Source: Prochlorococcus marinus str. MIT 0918 (GTDB taxonomy: Bacteria; Cyanobacteriota; Cyanobacteriia; PCC-6307; Cyanobiaceae). From it: a stretch of DNA of 64,000 nt. The position numbers and the translations under genes were made by a program. Within the stretch, counting starts at the first letter, position 1, and every line of letters starts with the position of its first letter. The notes under the pieces are model-generated. The model was not told the DNA's origin and ran no database searches. It saw nothing but the letters and a program-made list of their open reading frames with translations. Location: assembly GCF_027359415.1 (NCBI RefSeq), contig NZ_CP114780.1:1054001-1118000 (forward strand). Direction: 5' to 3'. Positions 37,789 through 48,679 of this stretch are shown here, one piece after another.

Positions 37789-39069
37789 TCAAATCTTGAA
37801 ATCTTCTCTAAACAATAATTCTGAAATTAAATTAGCAATGGCTGCACTTCCCCCGGCATCCCCCATGCGCTTTTTTCCTATATGAGCTAATGAATCCCTA
37901 AGCCGAACATTTTGAAGCAATAAAGTCACTATTTGAGAAAAGTTCTTGCTGTTTTTGCAAGGAATTACAGCTCCACCAAGCAATCTACTCTGTCTCAGGG
38001 CAAAACCCTTTTTAAACTGAGGTCCATTCCCTGGCAATGAAACACAAGGCACACCAAGTCCTACAAGCTGCTCAGTTGCAGTCCCTGCATTTGCGAGGCC
38101 AACCTCAGCAAATTGTGCCCATTGATAAAACTTTCCTATTCCAATAAAGATTTTCATCGAATCTTTTTCAAACAAAGCATTGGCTAAAAATTCTTGCTTA
38201 GCAAACAATTTCTTTGTAAACCCTGCATTAATTAAATACTGCTCAAGATCATCAATAGAAGGTTCGGAGCCAATCGCTACCAATATTGCTAAAGGAATTT
38301 TACTTTCAATAAGTTCAAGAGAACTGAGTAATCTTTTGAAATTACTCAAAGATTCAGGCATTCTACTTCCACAAAGTAATAGTAAGCGTCTATATCCAAT
38401 CAAAGTAGAAGGCATTTGCTTACTTTCAAAGCCATCCATCATTGGATTACCAGGTGCTAAGGCTTTTATATGATTTTTAGCTAGAGAACGAGCCGTTAAT
38501 TTATCTCTAACAACAATAATTTTGGATCGAGGTGATCTCATTAAGAGCATCTCCCAAGGATCCCATTCTGTCCCCTTTATTCGATGATACAAATCACCAA
38601 CAAAAGACTTTGGATATGTTTTCCATGTGTAATCACTTTTTGGAGTCCCCATAAATCCAAAAGAGCCTCCACTACTCCATGCAAAAACAAGAGGCAGTAA
38701 ATCGCCTACAGCAAAAATAAAACTCCCACTCTTCGCAGCATTCTTTACAGATATCCAATTTCGCCAAGTAACGCACAAAAGGCCTGCAAGAATATCTGCT
38801 ACAAAACCTCTAAAACTTTGATTACTAAAGCCGCCACTAGGCAAGCGTAAAGAAGTGCCTATTTTGACCAACCACCGTTTTGAGATCGCCTCTGAAAAAG
38901 TTTTCCCTTCTCCTACTAAAGGCAAAATTTGCAGCCTTAATTCTGGTCGTAATTCATGAAGAGACTCTAGAATTCTTAAAGCAATAAGGTCTTCTCCATG
39001 ACCATTGGAAAGAACTAAAACTTTTTTACTCTGCTGACTGATACGATCCAAAGGTGAGGTTTTTCTCAC
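37789..39069 (-). CDS. LpxB-like (lipid-A-disaccharide synthase-related) glycosyltransferase
   Basis: The 426-aa product begins VLVLSNGHGEDLIALRIL a few residues in, and has GSFGFMGTPKSDYTWKTYP, ALAPGNPMMDGF and the donor-site block EVGLANAGTATEQLVGLGVP. These fit the cyanobacterial/plant family annotated as lipid-A-disaccharide synthase related. The open frame runs on to 39204, but that stretch is antisense to tRNA-Cys. The GTG at 39069, preceded by GAGGGT and lying 6 nt past the tRNA, is the more credible start. The true substrate is unknown. Confidence 0.82.
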   Translation of the reverse strand: MRKTSPLDRISQQSKKVLVLSNGHGEDLIALRILESLHELRPELRLQILPLVGEGKTFSEAISKRWLVKIGTSLRLPSGGFSNQSFRGFVADILAGLLCVTWRNWISVKNAAKSGSFIFAVGDLLPLVFAWSSGGSFGFMGTPKSDYTWKTYPKSFVGDLYHRIKGTEWDPWEMLLMRSPRSKIIVVRDKLTARSLAKNHIKALAPGNPMMDGFESKQMPSTLIGYRRLLLLCGSRMPESLSNFKRLLSSLELIESKIPLAILVAIGSEPSIDDLEQYLINAGFTKKLFAKQEFLANALFEKDSMKIFIGIGKFYQWAQFAEVGLANAGTATEQLVGLGVPCVSLPGNGPQFKKGFALRQSRLLGGAVIPCKNSKNFSQIVTLLLQNVRLRDSLAHIGKKRMGDAGGSAAIANLISELLFREDFKI

Positions 39070-39075
39070 ACCCTC

Positions 39076-39146
39076 GGCGGCATGGCCAAGCGGTAAGGCA
39101 GAGGATTGCAAATCCTTTATCCCCAGTTCGAATCTGGGTGCCGCCT
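39076..39146 (+). tRNA. tRNA-Cys (anticodon GCA)
   Basis: The cloverleaf is complete: acceptor GGCGGCA/TGCCGCC, D arm GCC/GGC, anticodon stem GAGGA/TCCTT with loop TTGCAAA, T arm CCCAG/CTGGG around TTCGAAT, and discriminator T. It is transcribed against the LpxB-like gene and borders the small-gene pocket. No duplicated 3' end indicating an attachment site was seen nearby. Confidence 0.96.
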
Positions 39147-39324
39147 TCTTACCTTTCCTGAACATCAGTTGCAGGAACTCAATTATCAGGTCTCTCTTAC
39201 GCATTCACGTTGATCGGTGACTGGTCGATATCAGGGACACTTCGATGCCTTTGCTTGCATCCCCTTCTTTGATTGTGTCAATTACCGACCAAGATGCCAC
39301 ATGGGATTTGAGTTTCATCTGAAA

Positions 39325-39538: not shown

Positions 39539-39569
39539 TAAAAAAAAGGCGCCCTCAACGAGCAGCGCC
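39539..39569 (-). terminator. Rho-independent terminator of the Yfr1-like RNA
   Basis: On the minus strand GGCGC pairs with GCGCC, and inside it CTC pairs with GAG around a GTT loop. Eight T follow directly. The T run exists only on this strand, which fixes the direction of transcription. Confidence 0.8.
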
Positions 39570-39600
39570 CTATTGGACAAGTGTGTGAGGAGTGTCCTTT
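39541..39600 (-). ncRNA. yfr1: Yfr1-like small regulatory RNA
   Basis: The minus strand contains the exact 11-nt ACTCCTCACAC that defines cyanobacterial Yfr1 (39584-39594). It is followed within about 15 nt by a strong terminator hairpin and 8 T. A -10-like TATAGA lies at about 39606-39611, which would start an RNA of roughly 60 nt, the right size for Yfr1. It differs from the classical form in that short arms GGACA/TGTCC flank the motif, so the motif sits largely in a loop. The usual location near guaB-trxA is also not seen. Known Yfr1 pairs with porin-type mRNAs. Confidence 0.6.
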
Positions 39601-39869
39601 ATCACTCTATACCAAGAAAAAGACTTTTCAGGAAATTCTTAAAAAGACTTGCCGCATTAACTTGTTTCTTAGCAAAAAGAAACCTTGCACCATTTCAAAG
39701 AACCTATAGGGGACTAGTTGAAAACCGCGAAAATCGGAAAAAATACCAATCTCTAATAAAAATTAAATGCAATATAAAATAAAAATCTTAAGTCTTACAA
39801 TTATTAAGATGTTTAGCGTTCTTTTCAACAAGATTATAAAGTTATCAAATTAAAAAATCTATTGAATCA

Positions 39870-40242: not shown

Positions 40243-40854
40243 TTAATCAGTAGTAACCACTGATGCTGAATTAGAAGAAGGTGGTAAATCAACTATTTGC
40301 AAAGGGAGTGAACTCTCTCTTGGTGGTTCTTTAGAGGGTGAATTTTTTTCAATTTCTTCTTTAGCACATGCTTCCAGAGCCTCTCTTAATAAAGAATCAA
40401 AAGTAGCACCTGGAAGTCTATGTCTAGCAATCTCAAGGAATGTTCTAGGCAAAGATTCTGTAGCAGCATCTTTTAAAGCTGGATTATTCCTTCTATGTTC
40501 TTGTTCACCTTCAATTGCTCTAATAAATCTGAGTGTAACTTCATGCTTAGTTGATGCTTTTATCAAAGTGTCATTATCTTTATTTGCATTCTCACCTTCT
40601 AAATCATTAATTCTTCTTTCAAGACTATCTAGAACCTCCTCAGCCTCTTTAAAAATATGGGCCAATTGGCCATCAGAGAGATTAGGTAAATCAGCAACAT
40701 ATACCTTCCCATGATCCCTCAATGTTAAAAATGTAGGCCTTGGGCCTTGTCTATTATCCATTTGAGAAGTGCTTCCGCCTAAAGGCCTTCTAGGAGGGAC
40801 AGGCCCTGCAGAACTACGTCTACGTGTTAAACGAGGTTGATTTTCAGATGACAT
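40243..40854 (-). CDS. Conserved hypothetical protein with Pro/Arg-rich N-terminus
   Basis: The 203-aa product has a basic, Pro-rich start (TRRRSSAGPVPPRRPLGG), a central helical part with LPNLSDGQLAHIFKEAEEVL and SLERRINDLEGENA that could form a coiled coil, and a Ser/Pro-rich acidic end. I recognise no named domain; it seems specific to picocyanobacteria. It is followed after 8 nt by the four-cysteine protein gene, and the two may act together. Confidence 0.8.
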   Translation of the reverse strand: MSSENQPRLTRRRSSAGPVPPRRPLGGSTSQMDNRQGPRPTFLTLRDHGKVYVADLPNLSDGQLAHIFKEAEEVLDSLERRINDLEGENANKDNDTLIKASTKHEVTLRFIRAIEGEQEHRRNNPALKDAATESLPRTFLEIARHRLPGATFDSLLREALEACAKEEIEKNSPSKEPPRESSLPLQIVDLPPSSNSASVVTTD

Positions 40855-40995: not shown

Positions 40996-42033
40996 TTAAA
41001 TAGGCACTCCTCTAATTACAGATTCTTCATTACGTCTTTCCTCTTCTATTTGGCCGATATGCCATGCAGAAAAGCCATTGTCATGACAAATATCCAGGAT
41101 TCCTTTTAGGTAGTCAGGTGAAACAATTAAACAAAAGCCAATACCTAAATTAAAGGTATTCCATAAATCAGCTTCTGGAATCTGACCTTTGTTTTGTAAC
41201 CATTGATAAAAATAAGGAATTTCCCATGAGTTTCGATTAATTGCGGCTTTTAATCCTTTAGGTAGAATTCTCGGCAAATTTTCTGGCAGACCTCCTCCAG
41301 TTATATGAGCCATGCCATTAAGAGGTATTTTTTCTTGAAATATGGATTGAATTAAACGAACATAAATCAAAGTGGGTTGAAGCAAAAAATCAATCAGAGA
41401 AATTTTATCGGGACCAAAAGGCATATTTTTGTCAAATTCAGTCATGGACAAGACCTTTCGAACTAGGCTAAAACCATTGCTATGAACGCCAGAGCTTGCA
41501 ATTCCCACAAGACAATCACCTGGCTTGATATATTTGCCATCCACAATTTTCTTTTCTTCAACTACTCCTACACAAAACCCTGCCAAGTCATATCTTCCAT
41601 CTGGGTAGAAACCTGGCATCTCAGCTGTTTCACCACCCAATAAAGAACAATTAGCCTGCTTACATCCTTCCGAAATCCCACCTATTACCTCTACTAGAGC
41701 TTCAGGGCACAATTTACCAGTAGCGACATAGTCAAGAAAAAACAATGGTTCTGCACCACTAGTAATGACATCATTGACACACATTGCCACCAAATCGACT
41801 CCAACTCCAAAATGAGAATGCTCTTCTTGAGCTAATTCAAGTTTCGTGCCAACTCCGTCTGTACCAGAAACCAAAACAGGTTGATCAAAACCTTTCGGTA
41901 AACGCATGAATCCTCCAAAACCACCTATTCCTCCAATAACCTCAGATCTAGAAGTTTTATCTACACTTGATTTAATTCGATGAACAAAATCTCTTCCTGC
42001 CTCAACATTGACACCTGCAGATTTGTAATCCAT
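40996..42033 (-). CDS. purM: Phosphoribosylformylglycinamidine cyclo-ligase
   Basis: PurM makes AIR in purine synthesis. The 345-aa product begins [20 protein letters not shown] and shows [47 protein letters not shown] and [17 protein letters not shown], all typical. Length is normal. It diverges from panC/cmk across 132 nt. Confidence 0.97.
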
Positions 42034-47254: not shown

Positions 47255-48679
47255 ATGAGTAAATTTGAAAAAATCTCGGTACCAAATAAAGGTGAGAAAA
47301 TCCAATTTATAAATGGTCTCCCTATTGTTCCTAACAATCCAATTATTCCATTTATAAGAGGCGATGGAACTGGGGTAGATATTTGGCCTGCAACACAAAA
47401 AGTTATTGATCAAGCAGTCAAAAAAGCCTATGGAGAACAAAAAAAAATAGAATGGTTAAAAATTTTTGCAGGGGACGAAGCTTGCGAATTATATGGGGCC
47501 TACCAATATCTACCAAATGACACCATTGAGGCAATAAGTGAATATGGTGTTGCAATAAAAGGTCCATTAACAACACCTGTAGGGGGTGGTATTAGATCTT
47601 TAAATGTTGCTTTAAGGCAAATATTTGATTTATATAGTTGTGTTCGTCCATGCCGTTACTACCAAGGGACACCCAGTCCTCATAAACATCCTGAAGACCT
47701 TGATGTAATTGTATATAGAGAAAATACTGAAGATATTTATATCGGAATTGAATGGGAAGCAAATGATCCTATTGGAATCAATTTGATAGAAAATCTGAAT
47801 CAAAAAATTATACCCTCCAGTTCATCAATCAAAAACCGTAAAATACCAGAAGGCTCTGGCATTGGTATTAAGCCTGTAAGTAAAAAGGGAAGTCAAAGAC
47901 ATATTAGAAAAGCAATACAGCACGCCTTGAAACTTAATGAAAAAAAACGACATGTAACATTAGTGCATAAAGGTAATATTATGAAATTCACAGAAGGTGC
48001 ATTTCGTGACTGGGGATATGAATTAGCAACTACTGAATTTCGTCAGAATTGTATTACTGAAAGAGAAAGTTGGATTCTTCAAAATATAGAAAATAATCCT
48101 GAATTAAATATTGAAAATAATGCAAAAATGATTGACCCTGGATTTTCTGCTTTAACTATTGAAAAAAAAGAGATTATTTGTAAAGAAGTGCAATTAGTAA
48201 TCAATAAAATTCAACAAACTCATGGCAACGGTAATTGGAAAAAGATGGTTCTAATAGATGACAGAATTGCAGATAGTATTTTTCAACAAATTCAAACAAG
48301 GCCTCATGAGTATTCTATCCTGGCAACACTAAATTTAAATGGAGACTATATTTCAGATGCTGCAGCTGCAATTGTTGGAGGTTTAGGGATGGCTCCAGGA
48401 GCAAACATTGGAGATAAAGCTGCAATATTTGAAGCGACTCATGGAACTGCTCCAAAGCATGCAGGTTTAGACCGTATCAATCCTGGCTCATTAATTTTAA
48501 GTGGTGTAATGATGCTCGAATATCTAGGTTGGCAAGAAGCGGCTGAATTAATTACGAAAGGATTAAGGCAATCTATTCTAGATAAAAAAGTAACTTATGA
48601 TCTCGCAAGGCTTCTGGACCCTCCAGTTAAATCGTTGAAGTGTAGCGAATTTTCGAATGCCATAATTGAAAGATTCTAA
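47255..48679 (+). CDS. icd: NADP-dependent isocitrate dehydrogenase
   Basis: Icd makes 2-oxoglutarate, which in cyanobacteria feeds nitrogen assimilation and signals nitrogen status. The 474-aa product has PFIRGDGTGVDIWPAT, the substrate loop VYRENTEDIYIGIEWEA, NIMKFTEGAFRDWGYELA and EATHGTAPKHAGLDRINPGS. It is longer than E. coli Icd through an insertion near residues 270-310, as I recall for cyanobacteria. A GTA-N8-AAC at 47148-47161 is a poor NtcA-like match. Confidence 0.96.
   Translation: MSKFEKISVPNKGEKIQFINGLPIVPNNPIIPFIRGDGTGVDIWPATQKVIDQAVKKAYGEQKKIEWLKIFAGDEACELYGAYQYLPNDTIEAISEYGVAIKGPLTTPVGGGIRSLNVALRQIFDLYSCVRPCRYYQGTPSPHKHPEDLDVIVYRENTEDIYIGIEWEANDPIGINLIENLNQKIIPSSSSIKNRKIPEGSGIGIKPVSKKGSQRHIRKAIQHALKLNEKKRHVTLVHKGNIMKFTEGAFRDWGYELATTEFRQNCITERESWILQNIENNPELNIENNAKMIDPGFSALTIEKKEIICKEVQLVINKIQQTHGNGNWKKMVLIDDRIADSIFQQIQTRPHEYSILATLNLNGDYISDAAAAIVGGLGMAPGANIGDKAAIFEATHGTAPKHAGLDRINPGSLILSGVMMLEYLGWQEAAELITKGLRQSILDKKVTYDLARLLDPPVKSLKCSEFSNAIIERF

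Follow-up and report, generated by a model that had tools for sequence, protein, structure and literature searches.

A conserved small RNA gene of the Yfr10 type at a fixed locus in Prochlorococcus genomes lacking Yfr1

Introduction

Yfr1 is regarded as a near-universal small RNA of cyanobacteria, except that it is missing from low-light II/III Prochlorococcus. Another small RNA, Yfr10 of Prochlorococcus MED4, is reportedly due to Steglich in 2008; in MED4, it accumulates as a discrete RNA and rises in darkness. The two RNAs differ in the placement of the motif, which is unpaired between two stem-loops in Yfr1 but lies in a loop atop a stem in Yfr10 (PMC6778093, PMC2190773). In MED4, Yfr1 represses the porin gene PMM1121, and Yfr2 relieves this repression; Yfr10 binds the ppa mRNA via UCCU, also binds Yfr2, and has hundreds of enriched mRNA targets; and, in vitro, Yfr2 outcompetes ppa for Yfr1/Yfr10 (PMC6778093). 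The porin target has been shown for Yfr1 in this strain, and the targets that are not shared amount to almost half of those of Yfr1 and two thirds of those of Yfr10. The Yfr1 motif is also present in Yfr104 of MIT9313 (PMC6778093).

Low-light II/III strains without yfr1 have been described (PMC6778093). In one of these strains, SS120, a 2007 motif survey detected two exact matches, neither of which it considered related to Yfr1 (PMC2190773). Subsequently, a Yfr10 signal was obtained in SS120 by Northern blot (Lambrecht 2019; PMC6778093), and the idea of a stand-in for Yfr1 in this strain was raised in the same work.

Results

A conserved small RNA gene with the Yfr1 motif

Judging from the sequence, the window (the entire 64,000-nt stretch of Prochlorococcus marinus MIT 0918 DNA analyzed here) carries a real, conserved small RNA gene of the known Yfr10 kind, denoted copy A, the transcription of which is predicted (Table 1). 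On the minus strand, ACTCCTCACAC at 39593-39583 is the sole exact or one-mismatch match to the motif in the whole window, and dinucleotide shuffles yield 0.01 exact undecamers per window, close to the chance expectation of about 0.03 in the initial annotation. That annotation had also correctly delineated the other elements of the locus, namely, a TATAGA hexamer upstream of the 5′ end, motif-enclosing GGACA/TGTCC arms, a strong terminator with 8 T, and an RNA of about 60 nt. The sequence upstream of the seed, TTGGTATAGAGTGATAAAGGAC, includes TATAGA at 39611-39606 (minus strand) directly preceded by TGG, that is, an extended -10 element. The predicted RNA runs from about 39600 to about 39543 (about 58 nt), with the 3′ end in the T run, and its predicted fold (-19 kcal/mol, z -2.36) consists of a 5′ hairpin, in which GGACA pairs with UGUCC and the 13-nt loop holds the seed, and a terminator stem at 39571-39547 followed by 8 T at 39547-39540.

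Table 1. Features of the small RNA locus, its neighbors and its paralogs. Positions are those of the window unless a contig is named; R1 is a covariance model built from 28 relatives, with copies A, B, and C among its training members.
Feature	Position	Strand	Evidence
Small RNA gene copy A, Yfr10-type, GAC-stem subfamily	39540..39600	-	fold, covariance model (R1 86.1 bits), conservation, synteny
Extended -10 promoter element TGG-TATAGA (predicted)	39606..39614	-	sequence; conserved in orthologs
Seed undecamer ACUCCUCACAC	39583..39593	-	exact match; shuffle expectation
5′ hairpin (predicted)	39575..39597	-	GGACA 39597-39593 pairs with UGUCC 39579-39575; covarying outer pair
Intrinsic terminator AGGGCGCU-G-CUC-GUU-GAG-GGCGCCUU + 8 T	39540..39571	-	fold; compensatory changes
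h203, conserved hypothetical protein, 203 aa, upstream syntenic neighbor	40243..40854	-	no NCBIfam or Pfam match
purM, upstream syntenic neighbor	40996..42033	-	TIGR00878, 420 bits
tRNA-Cys(GCA), downstream neighbor, opposite strand	39076..39146	+	
Lipid-A-disaccharide synthase-related protein, downstream neighbor	37789..39204	-	TIGR03492, 450 bits, residues 63-463
Copy B	C1:1290074-1290138		R1 79.9 bits
Copy C	C1:1286961-1287025		R1 78.5 bits
Copy D, strict-Yfr10-like	L124:4632-4700 (source genome C1, about 1286631-1286699)	-	R1 23.5 bits

Across 12 same-genus orthologs, identity reaches 0.80-0.98 between positions -30 and +50 relative to the motif, compared to about 0.5 over most of the flanking sequence, and is highest over the promoter, RNA and terminator of copy A. 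In the alignment of 28 sequences, seed bases 1-10 are invariant and the last base is variable; two same-genus orthologs changed this last base of the 11-mer (CACAT, CACAG). The predicted structure is maintained as well: 94.3% of the alignment cells pair, with double changes at five pairs and covariation in both stems. The outer pair of the 5′ hairpin is changed from G-C to C-G in 6 of the 28 sequences (GGAC/GUCC to CGAC/GUCG), and the terminator contains compensatory changes at three pairs, for example, G-C to A-U and C-G to U-A. Altogether, there are 31 double-change cells, compared to 8.8 in shuffles and 0-9 with slid partners; because the alignment rows are related, the shuffle counts are not to be read as probabilities.

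The upstream element TTG[GC]TATA precedes 17 of the 18 copies A of the Yfr1-less clade, compared to 0 of the 35 other collected Yfr10-type RNAs, which include copies B of the same genomes and A-locus copies of Yfr1-bearing genomes. These occurrences are not independent, and the pattern would be accounted for by a single change in the ancestor of the clade. A second conserved block is located outside the small RNA, at window positions 39803-39843 (minus strand), some 210-250 nt 5′ of the seed, with identity of 0.73-0.80; in the relatives, it reads GACTATATAAG...CTAAACATCTTAACAATT, and it might represent a promoter, another RNA or a short ORF.

Affinity with Yfr10

At this locus, the best small-RNA match in the cmscan search is Rfam Yfr10 (RF02362), with the motif aligned in the loop. 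The score, 24.0 bits, is below the gathering cut-off of 43 bits, as are the scores of all same-genus members. Because copy A has the Yfr10 layout but scores below the Rfam threshold, we refer to it as Yfr10-type rather than as a member of Rfam Yfr10. PyrR and other weak Rfam matches over the locus fall far below their respective cut-offs.

Copy A shares with Yfr10 the small size, the occurrence in low-light Prochlorococcus, the exact undecamer in a 5′ hairpin loop, and its own Rho-independent terminator hairpin directly downstream; furthermore, its paralogs B and C precede Yfr2-type RNAs, an arrangement also seen in high-light strains. In contrast, the stem is [GC]GACA/UGUC[GC] rather than AUCAGAA/UUCUGAU, the terminator is of the form GCGCU-R-CUCGNNGAGGGCGC, and copy A is fixed between purM-h203 and tRNA-Cys, with no adjacent Yfr2 homolog; a location upstream of a Yfr2 homolog has been described for Yfr10 in high-light strains and is not universal. 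The similarity to Yfr1 (RF01116) includes the identical undecamer, similar length, a terminator of its own, and complementarity to porin leaders and Yfr2. However, the Yfr1 seed is unpaired between two hairpins and the gene is located between guaB and trxA, whereas copy A has neither this arrangement nor this position, nor a match to RF01116. The search with the Rfam Yfr1 model that had been proposed at the outset gave no match in the source genome at E ≤ 1.

Fixed synteny and absence of Yfr1

The locus had been placed between tRNA-Cys and purM; this context is right, except that h203, which has no match in NCBIfam or Pfam, intervenes between the RNA and purM. The order purM-h203-RNA-tRNA-Cys/lpxB-like is found in 12 of the 12 same-genus genomes with intact h203. 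The same order recurs in six more Yfr1-less genomes (G028, G105, G132, G079, G117, and G142) as far as the contigs or the fetched stretches reach, so that the synteny, which had been proposed as a check across low-light genomes, holds at 18 of the 18 Yfr1-less loci read. We take G002, G117, and G110 to be SS120, MIT9211, and MIT9313, respectively. The downstream lpxB-like ORF probably starts near 39070, given that the TIGR03492 match begins at residue 63 and that the N-terminal part of the ORF (AAPRFELGIKDLQSSALPLGHAA...) corresponds to tRNA-Cys translated in antisense. The interval between h203 and tRNA-Cys/lpxB widens to about 3-10 kb in other low-light genera (L212, L218, L222, L224, and L231), where it often contains Yfr10-type RNAs, in one case together with a neighboring Yfr2; this region resembles an insertion hotspot.

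RF01116 has matches in 158 of the 201 family genomes and no credible match in the source genome, its 13 genus mates or the six further genomes. In the source genome, SS120, MIT9211 and the other relatives checked, the guaB-trxA interval is intact without Yfr1, and the trxA leader is kept. The interpretation of the locus as a gene for a small RNA that bears the Yfr1 seed, in a genome devoid of Yfr1, is supported. In G016 and G014, both RNAs are present, Yfr1 at guaB-trxA and copy A after h203; this coexistence indicates that copy A predates the loss of Yfr1 and is not a moved Yfr1, in contrast to the initial suggestion of a diverged or relocated Yfr1. In the h203 tree, which is based on one gene and a short alignment, the Yfr1-less genomes fall on one side of a branch (support 94/92, present in 96% of bootstrap trees), which is consistent with a single loss.

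The initial annotation also considered a new RNA with the same seed, and it suggested that motif searches had missed a diverged or relocated Yfr1. The former idea comes close, but the kind had already been described as Yfr10; the notion of a miss by motif searches is half right, considering that the 2007 survey saw both SS120 matches and set them aside. One of these matches is the copy A ortholog and the sole one outside a long reading frame; the other, at 48572, lies inside a long open reading frame. Hence the Northern signal in SS120 most likely comes from the copy A ortholog.

Paralogs and related RNAs

In the source genome (G000), R1 finds three copies and a weak fourth, D. Copies B and C are located directly upstream of Yfr2-type RNAs on the same strand, the Yfr10-Yfr2 arrangement described in high-light strains. 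Copy D is downstream of Yfr2 and combines the stem AUUAGGA/UCCUAAU with a decayed motif, ACTCTTCACAT; it aligns with the strict Yfr10 RNAs of G016 and G029. The strict Yfr10 ortholog in the source genome thus seems to be copy D rather than copy A, so that two subfamilies, strict Yfr10 (D) and the GAC-stem type (A, B, and C), coexist in this genome. The seed of copy D in G011 and G013 reads ACTCCTCACAT.

Elsewhere, G010 (L126, L127, and L119) carries at least four Yfr10-type RNAs, each at a locus of its own, and the stem of some of them is CGAC/GTCG; MIT9313 has two matches of the copy A RNA type, one of which may be Yfr104. Both tandem loci have a palindromic TGTCACATGTGA-like element that separates the Yfr10-type RNA from Yfr2 (L114:1600-1640 and L002:1415-1440), possibly the GntR (CGRE1) site that has been described upstream of yfr2. 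Several other candidates were discarded: low-scoring Rfam Yfr10 matches in same-genus genomes (22-27 bits) are mostly ordinary terminators without the motif; motif matches at other places in G009 and G011 come without the hairpin; and 3 of 20 genome-contig matches (Nonomuraea, Lentisphaerae, and Ruminococcus) have no terminator and were attributed to chance. RF01117, tried as a Yfr2 model, is an unrelated microRNA family, Yfr2 being RF01701 (Cyano-1). Viral contigs contain no exact match to the two patterns for the copy A RNA type. A low-light Prochlorococcus genome also contains a match to the IsrR antisense RNA (128.9 bits; L018:2344-2527, plus strand).

Predicted targets

The leaders of porin (OprB family) genes contain UGUGAGGA or GUGUGAGGA, fully complementary to the seed, 14-16 nt upstream of the AUG, a pairing with porin mRNA starts that the initial annotation had proposed to check; the leaders compared are those of the source genome, SS120, G079, and MIT9211 (two genes). 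Because the seed includes an anti-Shine-Dalgarno-like CUCCU, some complementarity to any ribosome-binding site is automatic. The predicted pairing energies with the porin leaders are -13.2 to -16.7 kcal/mol; of 50 gene starts in the window, 4% and 0% are as good. The best motif complement among the gene starts of the window (34498) lies inside a longer ORF that starts upstream. The porin site, 8-9 bp long, is kept in the Yfr1-less genomes, and the predicted co-folding of copy A with the porin leader changes from -11.4 kcal/mol in the wild type to -1.8 kcal/mol when UCCU is changed.

Two Yfr2 homologs of the source genome show near-perfect complementarity to copy A (-15.9 and -17.1 kcal/mol). 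A third Yfr2-like RNA, adjoining copy B, co-folds with copy A at -3.1 kcal/mol, barely unlike the seed mutants. By analogy with MED4, copy A most likely pairs with the porin mRNA and with Yfr2.

Discussion

Taken together, these observations make it quite probable, in our assessment, that copy A encodes a Yfr10-type trans-acting RNA that pairs with porin mRNA and Yfr2 and supplies Yfr1-motif activity in a Yfr1-less clade. Under this scenario, an RNA of about 58 nt would be transcribed from its own extended -10 promoter to its own terminator and would present the seed CUCCUCACA in a hairpin loop. The seed would pair with the translation start region of the porin (som) mRNA, blocking ribosome binding, and with Yfr2-family RNAs in their 5′ part; the latter pairing would titrate copy A away from its mRNA targets. 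Several points weigh against this scenario: the Yfr10 score of copy A is well under the Rfam cut-off, copy D seems to be the strict ortholog, part of the seed complementarity to ribosome-binding sites is automatic, the porin target in MED4 was demonstrated for Yfr1 and many targets of Yfr1 and Yfr10 differ, and two same-genus orthologs have another last base in the 11-mer. We infer transcription of this copy, pairing in the cell, porin repression and the stand-in role; the motif, structure, terminator, conservation, covariation, synteny, complementarity and the absence of Yfr1 are read from the genomes themselves.

Among the alternatives, we consider it rather unlikely that copy A is mainly a regulator of Yfr2, a sponge or antagonist with little direct control of mRNAs. 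The near-perfect complementarity to Yfr2 homologs of the same genome, the position of copies B and C directly upstream of Yfr2-type RNAs, and the ability of Yfr2 to outcompete ppa in vitro (PMC6778093) are all compatible with such a role, but copy A itself has no neighboring Yfr2, the porin leader retains its 8-9-bp site in Yfr1-less genomes, and Yfr10 of MED4 has hundreds of enriched mRNA targets (PMC6778093). Copy A might also be the 3′ end of a purM-h203 transcript, that is, a readthrough terminator or a processed 3′ UTR, given that it is encoded on the same strand as both genes and that the nearest upstream gene ends about 640 nt away. This appears very improbable because a promoter-like element directly upstream is conserved, whereas most of the spacer is not, and because paralogs with the same RNA and terminator are present at unrelated loci.

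Finally, the identical 11-nt seed, the similar size, the separate terminator and the disappearance of Yfr1 from its usual place could be taken to mean that copy A represents Yfr1 after a move away from guaB-trxA and a change of fold. We find this hardly credible, in view of the coexistence of the two RNAs in G016 and G014 with copy A at the same locus, the location of the motif in a hairpin loop rather than between two hairpins, and the lack of an Rfam Yfr1 match.

The Yfr10 kind and the signal in SS120 were known before, and copy A belongs to an Rfam-missed subfamily of this kind, with an unexpectedly fixed synteny. The new findings are this synteny, the subfamily, which the Rfam Yfr10 model overlooks, the promoter change seen only in the Yfr1-less clade, and the motif-complementary site kept at the porin start. 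Every readable genome of the Yfr1-less clade, including both strains called Yfr1-less in 2007, carries at a fixed locus a conserved RNA that shares the Yfr1 seed, and the porin mRNA in this clade keeps the matching site. Copy A may thus do part of the work of Yfr1 in deep-living Prochlorococcus, which turns the loss of Yfr1 into a testable case of substitution of one small RNA for another.
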